A stretch of 64,000 nucleotides of DNA, taken from positions 1,736,001-1,800,000 of the forward strand of contig NZ_CP058335.1 of assembly GCF_013391105.1 (NCBI RefSeq), in the 5' to 3' direction. Below are positions 4,680-61,460 of this stretch, piece by piece. The notes under the pieces were generated by a model that was not told where the DNA came from, did not search any database, and saw only the letters and a list, made by a program, of their open reading frames with translations. This DNA is from Natronomonas salina (GTDB lineage: Archaea > Halobacteriota > Halobacteria > Halobacteriales > Haloarculaceae). Positions within the stretch are counted from its first letter, which is position 1; each line of letters begins with the position of its first letter. Position numbers and translations under genes: made by a program.

Positions 4680-5575
4680 TGGCCGTCCCTGAAGCGTTCA
4701 GGTCGTACGGTGATGAACGCCTTCAGCAAGCACCAGCGTTCGGTCACGGCAAGGACGGTGTTTTTGAAGCTACGCTCGTGCGTGAGACAGGCGGTGAAAC
4801 GCGACTGCTCCGCGATTACACGAAGGTTCCATACCACCTCACTGGGACACTGGACAACGACCCGGCACCTGGCTTGACTACTCTCTGTCTTCAGGAACCC
4901 ACCGGAGGGGTGGCGCAGGGCGATCGCCATAGTATCAACGTCGAAGCACGAGCTGATGCCCGAGCCCATCTGACAACCCAGAGTGCGACGAAGGTTCACA
5001 GTATGCGGGCGAACTACGCTCATCTCGATGCGACCCTCGAGGCCGGTCCGAACGCACACCTCGAGTACCTCCCCGGGCCAACGATTCTCAACGAGGAGGC
5101 TCGGTGCCTCCAGACGACAACGGTCGACCTCGCAGAGTCTGGGTCCGTGATCGTCGGGGATCTCATGGTACCGGACGGACTCTCAGATCACGATCCGTTC
5201 TCGTTCGATCATTATCACACCCGGCTCGAAGCACGTCATGAGGAGCGTCTGATATGTGCAGATGCAGTAGACCTTCGACCGAGTGATCGCCAGCCACAGG
5301 ACCCGGCGACCGTCGGAGAGTACGGGATCATAGGGACACTATACGTCCTGGCACCCTCAGAAGATGTCGAATCGATTTCCGACGCCATATACAATCAGTT
5401 GGCCGATAATGAGTCAACGGAAGCCGGAGCATCGGAGCTCCCGTACGGAAGTGGAGTTACTGTGCGTATCCTCGGCCATCGTAGCGCGGACGTGACTAAC
5501 GCGATGACTACTGCCTGGGATACGGCGCGGAAAGCAATTTTGGGGGTCGGCGCACCTGCCGACCGGAGGTACTGA
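4676..5575 (+). CDS. ureD: Urease accessory protein UreD (UreH)
   Basis: This is the scaffold of the UreD-UreF-UreG complex that delivers nickel to urease. It has 299 residues from ATG 4676, which overlaps the ureG stop. A second in-frame ATG follows at 4679. Family features include the conserved block PTGGVAQGD near residue 80, [12 protein letters not shown] and the [16 protein letters not shown] segment. The longer upstream frame from 4613 lies inside ureG and is rejected. The stop shares a base with the ureE start (TGATG). Confidence 0.93.
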
Positions 5576-50197: not shown

Positions 50198-50689
50198 ATG
50201 AGCATGGACTCAATCGAAGACCTGTTCGAGCACCAGCTGGAGGACATCTACTTCGCCGAGAACGAGCTCCTGGACGCCCTCGAGGAGCTCGCAGAGCAGA
50301 CCGAGAACGAGGAGATCGCGTCGGCCTTCGAGGAGCACCACGAGGAGACCGAGGGCCACGTCGACCGCCTCGAGGAGGTCTTCGACATCATCGGCGAGCC
50401 GCCGGAGACCGAGGAGTGCGAGGCGATCCAGGGACTCGTCGAGGAGCACGAGTCGTTCCTCGACGAGGACCCCGAACAGCACATCCTCGACGTCCACAAC
50501 ATCAACGCCGCCGAGAAGACCGAGCACTACGAGATCGCGGCCTACGGGAACCTCGCGTTCCTGGCCGACCAGCTCGGCTACGACGAGGCGGCCGACCTGC
50601 TGGGCCAGAACCTCGAGGAGGAGAAGGAGGCCCTCGAGAAGCTCAAGGACCTCACCGAGTCCTACGACTACCAGCAGATCCCCGCGTAA
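50198..50689 (+). CDS. Ferritin-like DUF892 (YciE/YciF) protein
   Basis: The 163 residues start from ATG 50198. A TATA-like TATACTAAT box about 30 bases upstream supports this start over 50090. It is a four-helix ferritin-like bundle with carboxylate/His positions: FAENELLDALEELAEQTENE, EEHHEETEGHVDRLEEVF, EKTEHYEIAAYGNLAFLADQ and EEEKEALEKLKDL. The bacterial YciE/F relatives are stress-induced and bind metal. It is very acidic, as expected of a halophile. Confidence 0.92.
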   Translation: MSMDSIEDLFEHQLEDIYFAENELLDALEELAEQTENEEIASAFEEHHEETEGHVDRLEEVFDIIGEPPETEECEAIQGLVEEHESFLDEDPEQHILDVHNINAAEKTEHYEIAAYGNLAFLADQLGYDEAADLLGQNLEEEKEALEKLKDLTESYDYQQIPA

Positions 50690-53530: not shown

Positions 53531-55252
53531 TCAGTCCTTCCTGACGAAGCGGCCCTGGTCGTCGCGCTCCAGGTTCTCCGAGGAGTTCTTGCCGCCGCGA
53601 CTCCGGTCCTCGTCAGTCAGCCCGCTATCGCTGTCGTCCTCCTCACCTTCGTCGGACAGCGCTTCGGACTGTTCGTCGGCCTGGCCCTCGGACTGCTCGT
53701 CGGTCCGCTCTTGTGACTGCTGTTCCGCCTGCTCTCCGAGTTCCTGGCTCTCTCCTTCCTCGGACTCCTGGTCCTCCTCCGCTCGACCGCTCTGTTCCGC
53801 CTGGTCTGCAGTTCGGTTCTGCTCGGTTTCGGGCTCCTCCTGACGGTCGTCCCTTTCGCGGTCGGCGTCGCCCTGTTCCTGCTGGCCACCCGTTTCCTGC
53901 TCGTGCTCCCCTCCGTCTCGTTCCTCGTCCAATCGCTGTGCGTCCCGGCCCCACGGCTCGGCGTTCCGGCCCTGCTGGCCGCGGCCCTGTGAGCCAGGGG
54001 CTTGATCTCGCGAGTGCTGGCCGCCCGTCCGCTGCCGGTCCTGCTCCGGGGAGTGTTGATTAGTTGGCCTGCCCTGCTGTGTTCCTCCCGATCGGTGCCC
54101 ACTGTGACCGCCCGACGGGGCGTTCTGGTGGCTCTGTCGCTCCGGTCGACCCTGCCGACCGGCGGCCTGTCCCTGGTGGCTCTGCGGTCCGGACTGGACG
54201 GGACGTTGGTTCACCTGGGACTGCTGCTGGCGGCCACCCCGCTGTCCCGACTGATCGGCCTTCGGCGGGAGCGCCTCGTGACCGGTGGGGTGCTGACTGC
54301 GCCCCTGCCCGCCACCTTGCCGATCGGCCGAGCCACCCTGCTGGCCTCCCTGTCCCTGGAACTGCTCGCCCTGCTGTCGAGTCGGCTGGGGATTCGGCCC
54401 TCCCTGTGGAGACGGCTGTCGACCCCCGGACCTCGGCGGCTGCCGGCCGGCGGACTGCGACGGTGGCTGGTTCTGGGGTTGCGGTGGCCGTTGGCCGCCG
54501 GAGGGCTGGGGCTGCTGGCCCTGGCCCGACGGCCCGGACTGTCGCTGTCCACCCTGTCGACGCTGCCCTCCCTGCGGTTCCTGCGGTCGTCCCCCCGTGG
54601 GCTGCTGGCCCTGTGGCGTCTGTTGGCTCTGCGGTGGCTGTCGGTTCTGCGGTGGCTGTTGGGCTTGCCGAGGAACCTGTCCCTCCGGCGGTCGCTGGCC
54701 CGCCGGGGGCTGGGTACCGCGGTTCTGCTGCCCGCCGGGCGACGATCGGTGGCTGACGGCCTGTTGCTCCGGGGGATGCTGCCCTTGAGGCGGCGGTCCG
54801 CCCTGCTGACCGGACTGCTGCTGTCCACCGGGTGGCCGACTGGGTCGCTGTCCCGACTGCGGCTGGTTACCAGGGTGGCCTCCGGACTGTGGAGGTTGCT
54901 GACCCTGGTGGTGATGCTGCTGACTGGACTGGTGCTGTCGTCCCCGAGTCTGGTCCTGAGCAGCAGGGGGCTCGCCCCGCGTCCCGCCCTGCTGGACACC
55001 GGACTGCTGTCCACCCTGCTGTTGTGGCGCCGGTTGGCCGCCTTGCTGGCCCCGGCGGGGCTCGTTCGAGCTGCCCTGAGGAGGTTGCTGCCTCTCACCT
55101 GGCTGGCCGGATTGGGATGGCGGGTACTGCTGTCCACCTTGCTGCTCTCTGCCCCTGCCCTGCTGGTCCGGCGGCTGCCGACCGCCCGACTGGTCGCGTC
55201 GGCCACCGTGCTGTCCGCCTCGGCCCTGGGTACCGCGGTCCTGCTGGTGCAT
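53531..55252 (-). CDS. Long Gln/Gly-rich, prion-like disordered protein
   Basis: ATG 55252 gives 573 residues. About 400 residues are built almost wholly from Gln, Gly, Pro, Arg, Ser and His (repeated QGGQQ, GQQP, PPQ, QSG), without any hydrophobic core. The last 150 residues turn into Glu/Asp/Gln-rich repeats and end with a short mixed tail (ENLERDDQGRFVRKD). There is no signal peptide or membrane helix. A GTTTAATC TATA-like box lies about 40 bases upstream on the minus strand, supporting this strand over the leucine-rich antisense frame. A second protein of this kind lies at 60162. Phase separation, matrix or desiccation protection are guesses. Confidence 0.72.
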   Translation of the reverse strand: MHQQDRGTQGRGGQHGGRRDQSGGRQPPDQQGRGREQQGGQQYPPSQSGQPGERQQPPQGSSNEPRRGQQGGQPAPQQQGGQQSGVQQGGTRGEPPAAQDQTRGRQHQSSQQHHHQGQQPPQSGGHPGNQPQSGQRPSRPPGGQQQSGQQGGPPPQGQHPPEQQAVSHRSSPGGQQNRGTQPPAGQRPPEGQVPRQAQQPPQNRQPPQSQQTPQGQQPTGGRPQEPQGGQRRQGGQRQSGPSGQGQQPQPSGGQRPPQPQNQPPSQSAGRQPPRSGGRQPSPQGGPNPQPTRQQGEQFQGQGGQQGGSADRQGGGQGRSQHPTGHEALPPKADQSGQRGGRQQQSQVNQRPVQSGPQSHQGQAAGRQGRPERQSHQNAPSGGHSGHRSGGTQQGRPTNQHSPEQDRQRTGGQHSRDQAPGSQGRGQQGRNAEPWGRDAQRLDEERDGGEHEQETGGQQEQGDADRERDDRQEEPETEQNRTADQAEQSGRAEEDQESEEGESQELGEQAEQQSQERTDEQSEGQADEQSEALSDEGEEDDSDSGLTDEDRSRGGKNSSENLERDDQGRFVRKD

Positions 55253-55481
55253 GTGGTAGCTCGGCTCAAGGTACGCGGAGGAGCGATTAAACGACGGCCA
55301 CCGTTCACGCGGATGGAACCTGAAAGCCCCCGCTAGGAGGGTCCGACCCGTCTGTTAATCCCAGCAGCGCCCGCGAAGCGCGGTCTTACTATCCGTGGAA
55401 TCCGAACGGAAACCCGGTGCCACGCGGTACGTCGGTCGTACGACCCGGCTCTTTTTGTCGCCCGAGAAACAACAATCTCCC

Positions 55482-55766
55482 ATGTCGGAACTCGACCAGC
55501 TCGCGGTCACGATCGGCAAGATGGGTGAGGGCGACTGGAAGCTCTCGATCGAGGACGGCGAGACGATCGAGACCACGCTCACCGAGGTCGACGTCGACGA
55601 GAACCGCGGCCTGGAGGCCGAGGGCCGCAACGAGGACGAGGAGTTCCTCGTCGAACTCACCAGCGGCCCCCAGCCCGGCGGGCCGATCCGGCTCCGCAAG
55701 CGTGGGATGAGCGACGAGAGCTGGGAGGAGGTCGGCGAGCTCGCGGACGCCAACCGCCTCGACTGA
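55482..55766 (+). CDS. Conserved-looking small acidic protein, 94 aa
   Basis: ATG 55482 gives a beta-rich protein: LDQLAVTIGKMGEGDWKLSI, IETTLTEVDVDENRGLEA, FLVELTSGPQPGGPIRLRKR. The composition is strongly acidic and it has no signal or membrane segment. The frame upstream of the ATG (from 55395) is non-conserved in character. It is convergent with the cupin gene. Unnamed. Confidence 0.72.
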   Translation: MSELDQLAVTIGKMGEGDWKLSIEDGETIETTLTEVDVDENRGLEAEGRNEDEEFLVELTSGPQPGGPIRLRKRGMSDESWEEVGELADANRLD

Positions 55767-58197: not shown

Positions 58198-59730
58198 ATG
58201 TCCCCGACAAGGCGACAGGTCGTGAACGCCATCGCAGCAGGCGCAGTCGTCCCGGTCACTGTCGCGTCCGCAGAAGCGCAAGAACAGGATTCCCAGGATT
58301 TCTCTCCCGATATCACTATCCACTCGAACAATCTGGTCGCGACGATCGGCGCGCGCGACGACGACGTCGACCCCGACACGGTGAGCATCACCACCGCCGA
58401 CGGTGAGACCCACACGTTCGACGGCGCCGCTCGGGACGAGTGGAACGCCGGCAACGAGTTCGACGTCGGATACACGAACGGCTCGTCGCGCGCACGCATC
58501 GGTAGCTGGCAGGGCGTCATCAGGGAGGTCACGGCGACGCGCGGCGACGAGTCCGTCACCGAGACCAACGACCGCGCCAGCAGCCTCGAGGTGTCCTGCT
58601 CGATGTGGCAGACGCCGGACGAACCGCCCAGGCATCTCGCCGTGGTCTCGGAGGGCGCCACGAAGCAGTTCCGGAACCGCGGCGGTAGTGGTCCCGACGC
58701 AGAGCGACGATACGGCTCGCCAGGCCGCTCGCTCCAGAGGGTCGTCGAGCACAACCCCGAGGTCGAGATGGAGGTTCAATTCGAGGGCTGTTCGCCCGGT
58801 TCCGAGAAGGCGCTCCGTTTCAACTGCACCAGCGTTACCGTCGAGGAAGAGGAACTGATCCATGGCGAAGATCGGATCGACGACGTCCGCCTCGAGTTCA
58901 CCGACGGGTCGAGCGAGAACCCGCCCGGGACCGCCGACGACGCCGACAACGGCGCCTACGAACTCCCGGTGACCCTCGAGGGCACCGGCGATAACGCCGG
59001 AAAAGTCATCGATAAGCTCCACTTCAAGGTTCTCGGAGACCAGTACAGCTACGCCAACCTCGACTCGGCGAACTGTTCGCCCGAGACGAGCGGCCAGCAG
59101 GACTCCCAGGAGAGCGACGGGACGGACGAGCAGCAGAACGAAAGCGACGACTCCCCCGACGATTCCACCGAATCGGGTTCCACCAGCGACGACAGCACGA
59201 GCAGCGATAATACGAACGAGGACACCCCGAGTGACGACAGCACGAGCAGCGGGAGCACGAACGACAGCACGAGTGACGACGACTCGTCCGGTGGCTCACA
59301 GCCGTCGTCGGACTCGACGAGCGCACAGGACTCGTCGAGCGGCGGCTCCACGAGCGGTGGTGGCACCTCGAGTCGGAGTACGTCCGGCGGCTCGACGAGC
59401 AGTGACCTGTCCGCCGATGGGACCCCCACTCCGACGGCCGACTCCGACACGTCGACCGTGAGCGTGAACCGGACGGAGGAGCAGCACATCCAGCTCAACA
59501 CCTCGTCTACCCCGGAGAACACCACCCCGACGAACGCGTCCCGGACGAACGCCGCCGCGGAGGCGAGCAACGAACCCTCGACCGCGACGGCGACCTCGGA
59601 GCTCACCGACGCCGCCGGCGCGGAGGACCAGCCAGGCCTCGGATTCGTCTCCGGGCTCGGTGGACTGCTCGGCTTCGGCGAGCTCGCGCGACGCCGCCTC
59701 GGTCGCGACGAGGACGGGGACGAGGAGTAG
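58198..59730 (+). CDS. Ser/Thr-rich surface protein with C-terminal sorting-like tail
   Basis: ATG 58198 gives 510 residues. A twin-arginine leader (TRRQVVNAIAAGAVVPVTVA) ends near ASAEAQ. The exterior domain (about 30-300) is beta-rich with four spaced Cys. A stalk of about 160 residues made of Ser, Thr, Asp and Gly follows, suited to O-glycosylation. The end QPGLGFVSGLGGLLGFGELA then RRRLGRDEDGDEE has the layout of archaeosortase substrates (PGF-CTERM: PGF motif, hydrophobic stretch, basic residues), but the motif reads PGLGF and an acidic tail follows. It may be cleaved and lipid-anchored, or simply membrane-anchored. Confidence 0.75.
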   Translation: MSPTRRQVVNAIAAGAVVPVTVASAEAQEQDSQDFSPDITIHSNNLVATIGARDDDVDPDTVSITTADGETHTFDGAARDEWNAGNEFDVGYTNGSSRARIGSWQGVIREVTATRGDESVTETNDRASSLEVSCSMWQTPDEPPRHLAVVSEGATKQFRNRGGSGPDAERRYGSPGRSLQRVVEHNPEVEMEVQFEGCSPGSEKALRFNCTSVTVEEEELIHGEDRIDDVRLEFTDGSSENPPGTADDADNGAYELPVTLEGTGDNAGKVIDKLHFKVLGDQYSYANLDSANCSPETSGQQDSQESDGTDEQQNESDDSPDDSTESGSTSDDSTSSDNTNEDTPSDDSTSSGSTNDSTSDDDSSGGSQPSSDSTSAQDSSSGGSTSGGGTSSRSTSGGSTSSDLSADGTPTPTADSDTSTVSVNRTEEQHIQLNTSSTPENTTPTNASRTNAAAEASNEPSTATATSELTDAAGAEDQPGLGFVSGLGGLLGFGELARRRLGRDEDGDEE

Positions 59731-60161: not shown

Positions 60162-61460
60162 CTATCGCTGCTGCTTGTCGATGTCCTGGTTGATGGGCGA
60201 GTGCTCGGCGTCCATCTCGTGGGCGTGGCCCTGGCTGTACTGCTGCTGGCCCTGGAACTGGCCGGGGAACTGCTCGGCCTGCTGCTGGACGTCCTGCTGG
60301 CCGGGGCGACCGCCCTGCTGCTGTTGGGTGGGCTCACCGAAGGACTGCTCGCCGCCCACGTACGCGTCGTTCTGCTCGTGGCGGGCTTCGCCACCGTACT
60401 GGAGCCCCTGGTCGACCTGCTGGTTGCCCTGGCGCTGCTGGCCGTACTGCTGGCCCTGCTGGTTCTGTCGGCCCTGCTGGTTCTGCTGACGCCGCTGTCT
60501 GCCCTGCTGCTGGCCGAACTGTCGGGACTGGCCACCCTGCTGGCCACCGCTCTGCTGCTGTCCCTGCTGGGTCGACCCCTGCTGCGTCCGGTAGTTCTGG
60601 GGCGTCCCGTGATTCTGCTGGCTCTGCTGATTCTGCTGGGACCGCTGGGACGAGCCCTGCTGGGACTGCTGGCGCTGGTCGTCGCTCGGCTGGCTCAGGT
60701 AGCTCTGCTGGCCACCCAGGTGCGTCCGCTGGCCCTGGTCCTGCTGAGAGCGCTGTCCCTGCTGACTACCGAACTGGTTCTGCTGGCCCTGGTTGGACTG
60801 CTGGCCGCCGAACTGGGTCTGGTCCCGCTGCTGGCTGTATTGCTGGGACTGGCCACCCTGCTGCTGTCCCTGCTGGGTCGAACCCTGCTGCGTCCGGTAG
60901 TTCTCGGCCGTCCCGTGCGGCTGTTGGCTCTGCTGGTGCTGCTGACCCTGCTGGTTCTGCTGGCTTCCGAACTGGTCCTGGTGGCCACCGAACTGCCGCT
61001 GCTGGTTCTGGCTCACTTTCTGCTGGCGGCCACCCTGGGACCTCTGGCCGGACTGCTGGCGCTGGCCCGACTGCTGGCCGTGCTGTCGGTACTGGTCCTG
61101 GCCGGACTGGCGGCCCTGCTGGGACCCCTGGGAGTGGGTGGGCTGCTCGGAGAGTTCCTCCTGTCGCTGCTGCTGAATCTCCTGTCGCAGCGGTTCCTGG
61201 GACTGCTGGTTCTGACGACCCTGCTGGTTCTGCTGGCCGCCGAACTGTTGTTGCCGATTCCTGTTCTGACTCTGCTGATGCTGTCCCTGCCGCTGGTTCT
61301 GCCCCTGGTGCTGCCGATTCTGGCCCCCCTGTCCCTGCTGGCTATACCCCTGCTGGTACTGCTGACCGTACTGCCGTTGCTGGTCGTCCCTCCCGTCCTC
61401 GTCGTCCTGGCCTTCCCGATACGCCTGCGGATTCGCGTGTCGATGTGGATTCTGACTCAC
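60162..61460 (-). CDS. Second Gln-rich, prion-like protein with internal repeats
   Basis: The start was set at GTG 61460 (MSQNPHRHANPQAYREG), since the frame back to 61526 has a hydrophobic, unrelated start. The 432 residues are dominated by Gln with Gly, Arg, Ser, Asn, His and Tyr. A 102-residue unit is duplicated (NYRTQQGSTQQGQQQ occurs twice, 306 bases apart). The C-terminus has a more ordered segment (QYSQGHAHEMDAEHSPINQD). Tyr/Arg/Gln-rich composition is that of phase-separating proteins. It has no export signal. Most Gln codons are CAG, so the antisense strand reads as a leucine-rich frame, which is rejected. Confidence 0.7.
   Translation of the reverse strand: MSQNPHRHANPQAYREGQDDEDGRDDQQRQYGQQYQQGYSQQGQGGQNRQHQGQNQRQGQHQQSQNRNRQQQFGGQQNQQGRQNQQSQEPLRQEIQQQRQEELSEQPTHSQGSQQGRQSGQDQYRQHGQQSGQRQQSGQRSQGGRQQKVSQNQQRQFGGHQDQFGSQQNQQGQQHQQSQQPHGTAENYRTQQGSTQQGQQQGGQSQQYSQQRDQTQFGGQQSNQGQQNQFGSQQGQRSQQDQGQRTHLGGQQSYLSQPSDDQRQQSQQGSSQRSQQNQQSQQNHGTPQNYRTQQGSTQQGQQQSGGQQGGQSRQFGQQQGRQRRQQNQQGRQNQQGQQYGQQRQGNQQVDQGLQYGGEARHEQNDAYVGGEQSFGEPTQQQQGGRPGQQDVQQQAEQFPGQFQGQQQYSQGHAHEMDAEHSPINQDIDKQQR
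60552..60611 (+). repeat. Internal repeat in the Gln-rich gene, copy A
   Basis: About 60 bases are almost identical to 60858-60917, encoding HGTPQNYRTQQGSTQQGQQQ on the minus strand. The spacing of 306 bases (102 codons) keeps the frame, as expected of a segmental duplication within the coding sequence. Confidence 0.7.
60858..60917 (+). repeat. Internal repeat in the Gln-rich gene, copy B
   Basis: Copy of 60552-60611, differing at a few bases and encoding HGTAENYRTQQGSTQQGQQQ on the minus strand. Confidence 0.7.

Follow-up and report, generated by a model that had tools for sequence, protein, structure and literature searches.

The region analysed is a 64,000-nucleotide stretch of the Natronomonas salina genome (contig NZ_CP058335.1), hereafter called the window, in which a long reading frame on the minus strand, P0001, begins with an ATG at 55252, remains open for 573 codons and ends with a stop codon at 53531-53533. 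This agrees with a preliminary description of the locus, which had recorded an intact frame of 1.7 kb and had named no strand. The relevant features, each with its basis, are the following.

53531..55252, minus strand: P0001, a Gln/Gly/Pro/Arg-rich disordered protein of 573 aa (open reading frame, composition and pLDDT)
53963..55252, minus strand: residues 1-430 of P0001, basic and Q/G/P-rich (R+K 45, D+E 19, Q 118, G 88, P 63; counts)
53627..53962, minus strand: residues 431-542, acidic and E/D/Q-rich (counts for residues 431-573 and structure prediction)
53534..53626, minus strand: residues 543-573, conserved C-terminal module SGLTDEDRSRGGKNSSENLERDDQGRFVRKD (tail search, alignment and profile)
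55285..55291, minus strand: TATA-like TTTAATC, 39 to 33 bases upstream of the P0001 ATG (inferred promoter)
50198..50689, plus strand: DUF892 (YciE/YciF-like) gene, 3 kb from the P0001 gene (family match)
60162..61460, minus strand: second Q-rich frame, GTG start at 61460, about 432 aa with 39% Q (likeness of composition only)

The Gln/Gly/Pro-rich composition first reported for P0001 is confirmed by the residue counts, with 137 Gln (23.9%), 103 Gly (18.0%) and 65 Pro (11.3%) among the 573 residues, to which 58 Arg (10.1%) can be added; residues 431-573 are net acidic (R+K 16, D+E 53). The protein is extremely hydrophilic (GRAVY -2.11), and as no 19-residue stretch exceeds a mean hydropathy of -1.12, it has neither a signal peptide, as had been stated earlier, nor a membrane helix. 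Single-sequence AlphaFold2 gave a mean pLDDT of 43.7, a value that supports disorder, although such models of disordered proteins are poor anyway, and predicted helices at residues 478-488 and 493-520 with low confidence. A beta hairpin modelled at the RDDQGRF end of the protein (pLDDT 74-82) was rejected, as it was not recovered confidently in the five-module protein of Halosimplex pelagicum. Together, these data support a cytosolic protein that is predicted to be almost wholly disordered. The earlier claim that nearly all of the protein is of low complexity holds for most of P0001 but not for its last 31 residues, which form the conserved module. P0001 has no family match in Pfam, NCBIfam or PHROGs, and a full-length search of 60 genomes returned one other match (G026), which was dropped as a relative, the matched frame containing only 1% Q.

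Coding status of the frame

A frame of this composition might be spurious, the true product being encoded on the opposite strand or not existing at all. Indeed, an antisense frame of 444 aa overlaps P0001, a simple codon-score gene caller missed P0001, and the codon bias is about equal in the sense (0.191 bits per codon) and antisense (0.206) frames, compared with 0.863-0.941 in five neighbours, the training set for these values being six genes, one of which, a cupin gene, was read in the wrong frame; the two strands cannot be told apart by their codon bias here. Among 2000 random sequences of matched dinucleotide composition, 77 leave a given frame open for as long, so the openness of the frame is weak evidence. 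Synteny across the genus was also discarded as support, since the small neighbouring gene at 55482-55766 occurs in two of 20 genus genomes, its own included, in a setting that is not the same. Taken singly, neither the codon bias nor the openness of the frame nor its neighbourhood supports a P0001 gene. On the other side, it is only in the sense frame that the tail of P0001 finds matches in other genomes, and leucine in the antisense product would be encoded by CTG 118 times and by CTC 31 times, whereas the neighbours use CTC 69 and CTG 25 times. Furthermore, the TATA-like box that starts 39 bases before the ATG is correctly placed, and such pentamers are scarce in the window, being found in just 171 of 18,280 stretches of 26 nt, which agrees with the earlier remark that the frame has a plausible promoter. 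We regard a spurious frame as very improbable.

The preliminary description had named conservation of the frame in relatives among its checks, and this one was passed in genus g13, where six species (four are Halosimplex records) carry the gene between the same neighbours. In DNA-level alignments of these species, made without codon information, 174 of 182 gaps were multiples of three, a number that repeats with a three-base period favour to some degree, and the third codon position was the most changeable in all 15 species pairs; the frame is thus kept while the repeats vary in length. In the tail (27 codons), pN was below pS in 15 of 15 g13 pairs and, often by little, in 13 of 15 pairs of P0001 with the others. 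The gene was found in none of the other 19 genus genomes (at E<=0.1, counting matches that lie in a Q-rich frame), so that frame conservation is shown for the relatives and not for P0001 itself.

Several other frames of unusual composition were seen in the same genome. The second Q-rich frame of the window carries internal repeats of the form HGTxxNYRTQQGSTQQGQQQ. A third Gln-rich protein (378 aa, 39% Q) is encoded between core metabolic genes near 728.5-729.6 kb of C1 (L104:9456-10592, minus strand), and two more Gln-rich frames lie near proteasome-like genes, one at 4886-5560 (minus strand) of locus L105 (C1 822.5-842.4 kb) and one near 832 kb (L090). The module was found neither in the second Q-rich frame of the window nor in the Q-rich gene at 729 kb. 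By a CAG pattern search, the genus mates have almost no such Gln-rich genes. In addition, the plus-strand frame at 58198-59730 encodes a protein rich in Ser, Thr and Asp, whose N-terminus opens with a signal-like RR segment and whose C-terminal part has a hydrophobic stretch and then RRRLGR; it looks surface-anchored.

The C-terminal module and its family

The preliminary description had missed the conserved module at the C-terminus of P0001, the haloarchaeal family that carries it and its link to the DUF892 stress proteins. The module is about 28 residues long and has the form x-L-T-x-E-x-R-x-R-G-G-x-x-S-x5-R-D-x-x-G-x-F, and an alignment of twelve tails contains seven invariant columns. When P0001 was left out of a profile of 46 modules, its tail still scored 27.4 bits, compared with 7.0 for the best among 300 shuffles of the P0001 sequence, which places P0001 within the family.

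The tail search finds long Q-rich frames across the Haloarculaceae. Among 146 genomes of the taxonomic family, the tail search returned a match at E<=1 in 30, and a Q-rich frame was seen at the match in 15 (its own genome included); in loci cut short, L024 for one, the frame seen is perhaps not the matched one. At E<=1e-6, nine of 391 genomes of the class matched, every match lying in a long frame. The named members are from Halosimplex aquaticum, H. carlsbadense, H. salinum, H. pelagicum, Haloarculaceae archaeon H-GB1-1, Halostella pelagica and a Halobacteriales MAG; two further module matches come from a Phycisphaerales MAG and a MAG labelled Pacearchaeota. P0001 has one copy and its relatives one to six, with 47 modules in 17 proteins, 13 of them C-terminal, in counts for which the search pattern itself fixes some columns. 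Judged from sequence, the module defines a haloarchaeal family of Q/G-rich proteins with one to six copies each, a family that we define here. P0001 is an outlier within it, having less Q, more P, an acidic block and a single module. An N-terminal head common to P0001 and the family was also considered and rejected, as 160 of 1000 shuffles scored as well.

Neither P0001 nor the module matched any entry in Pfam, NCBIfam or PDB (for the module, no solved chain at E<=10) or in PHROGs. None of 21 stretches from viral contigs was confirmed, and plasmids likewise yielded no match. The literature searched held no match for haloarchaea with a glutamine-rich protein or with low complexity or disorder.

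Module-bearing DUF892 proteins and the KGG repeat

In the Phycisphaerales MAG (G460), a DUF892 protein (PF05974, E 9e-53) carries repeated copies of the module in its disordered tail, and the same fusion is present in a second genome of that order (G870). Such fusions were found in two of 201 genomes of the order and in one of 246 in a phylum-wide sample; a third genome of the order gave a weak module match (9e-4), with no Q-rich or DUF892 frame seen. The DUF892 proteins of loci L100 and L106, from two genomes of one bacterial order, have long RGG/D-rich tails with one to three modules and a KGG-like GGQHSHGG end.

Among the 146 genomes of the taxonomic family, DUF892 scored over the cut-off in 12 of 15 module-positive genomes and in 34 of 131 others (Fisher p 6e-5, kinship ignored), where module-positive denotes the 15 genomes with a Q-rich frame seen, the 15 others of the 30 with a tail match having been dropped for loci without one; without the seven g13 genomes and the weak DUF892 matches the co-occurrence has p=0.016. 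In the other 20-kb loci examined, the module gene had no DUF892 gene nearby, and none of ten haloarchaeal DUF892 proteins examined carries the module. As far as sequence comparison can tell, it is the bacterial fusion, not a shared operon, that ties the DUF892 gene of the window to P0001.

In E. coli, the DUF892 genes yciE and yciF adjoin the KGG gene yciG. KGG proteins are characterized in PMC7161692 as disordered, RpoS-regulated stress proteins, and another report (PMC6727835) presents YciF as a stress-inducible, ferritin-like protein. The module was compared with the KGG repeat and rejected as a KGG repeat. The Pfam KGG family matches neither P0001 nor its relatives at E<=10, and it matches none of 97 genomes of the haloarchaeal class, while three control genomes do match. 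The likeness in hhalign is limited to 11 columns with a probability of 9-14%; none of 100 column-permuted KGG profiles reached the real score of 14.85, the best coming close at 14.31.

Possible function and related systems

The reading that we favour, at a probability of about 0.45, is that P0001 is a cytosolic, disordered, hydrophilin-like general-stress protein. Its long Gln/Gly body would act as a bulk hydration or shielding polymer, which may keep other proteins soluble when water activity falls, as in desiccation or salt shifts, while specificity would lie in the module, as a motif for docking or homotypic contacts possibly common to the ferritin-like DUF892 stress protein encoded 3 kb away. 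A repeat number that varies beside a constant module is in keeping with a polymer in which length counts for little and the end for much.

A prion-like protein or condensate scaffold, whose Q/G-rich body phase-separates or forms amyloid-like fibres, would be closer to the earlier description, in which the composition was likened to that of condensate- or gel-forming proteins. Gln makes up 24% of P0001 and 30-48% of its relatives, Q/N density rises to 52 per 80 residues in the relatives and to 44 in the second Q-rich frame of the window (P0002), and a basic body with an acidic end could give complex coacervation; however, the cytosol of haloarchaea contains molar salt, which would screen charge-driven coacervation. 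An older threshold for prion-like domains is at least 30 Q/N per 80 residues, and the densest 80 residues of P0001 contain exactly 30, just at this limit. Gln accounts for all but 13 of the 150 Q/N residues of P0001 (Asn 2.3%), and the aromatic stickers and low proline content of prion-like domains are missing (Y+F+W 4 of 573, with Pro as given above). The likening to condensate formers is therefore not borne out, prion-like behaviour of P0001 is poorly supported and we hold this reading to be unlikely; as the family tail also occurs on bacterial stress proteins, a stress protectant is likelier than a prion. The relatives with 34-48% Q and 2-6% aromatics and the second Q-rich frame are better prion-like candidates than P0001. 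Archaeal prion domains have been tested elsewhere. Among the papers listed on archaeal prions, none concerned a haloarchaeal protein of the P0001 kind.

It is rather improbable that P0001 is translated but largely useless, the outcome of a neutral or selfish expansion of repeats in which a small functional module came to be surrounded by products of CAG/GGN slippage. Length and repeat content do vary freely among the six g13 species, codon bias is weak and three more Q-rich frames exist in the genome, yet the frame is conserved in the relatives and the module is conserved across genera and into bacteria. An even smaller likelihood attaches to a nucleic-acid-binding protein, in which RGG and RDxxGxF elements would contact RNA or DNA with the Q-rich body as a spacer. 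Arg amounts to 10% of P0001, and the short motif of the module end recurs as RDExGQF near the start of two proteins of other haloarchaea (L055, L059), which look like winged-helix DNA-binding regulators; P0001, however, has three RGG triplets only and matches no known nucleic-acid-binding family, and the module matches no solved chain at E<=10.

A bolder form of the stress-protein reading, which we consider doubtful, is that haloarchaea possess their own class of long Gln/Gly stress polymers, addressed by an RGG-S-RDxxGxF module also found on DUF892 proteins across domains of life, and that polymer and ferritin-like cage might come together as a protective body when water or oxidative stress sets in. 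The module offers, in any case, a short peptide handle not only on the Q-rich family but also on the DUF892 stress proteins, which are poorly understood. A conserved Gln/Gly-rich, partly basic disordered family in haloarchaea would also provide a natural test of such chains at molar salt, in contrast to the description of Gln-rich proteins as mostly eukaryotic and to the expectation that the haloarchaeal cytosol favours acidic proteins. The eukaryotic bias is stated in a low-complexity survey (PMC11132505), where Q-rich domains appear as a markedly eukaryotic feature.

Since neither the protein nor the module has a match in databases or literature, P0001 is best placed among disordered stress proteins as a variant. 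Hydrophilins are delimited by Gly above 6% and hydrophilicity above 1, limits that P0001 far exceeds in Gly content and mean hydropathy; it differs from hydrophilins and LEA-like proteins in being much longer, dominated by Gln and provided with a conserved terminal module. With prion-like domains of the yeast Sup35 and human FUS type it shares Gln-rich low complexity, but it is almost devoid of Asn and aromatics and contains much Pro. The module occurs in the tails of DUF892 proteins (PF05974; YciE/YciF) of two bacterial genomes, whereas P0001 has no DUF892 domain or PF05974 match. KGG proteins (PF10685; E. coli YciG and YmdF) resemble it as disordered proteins with a small glycine-rich repeat containing GGQHS, encoded beside DUF892 genes in E. 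coli, but where the KGG unit has its second half, the module of the P0001 family has RDxxGxF.
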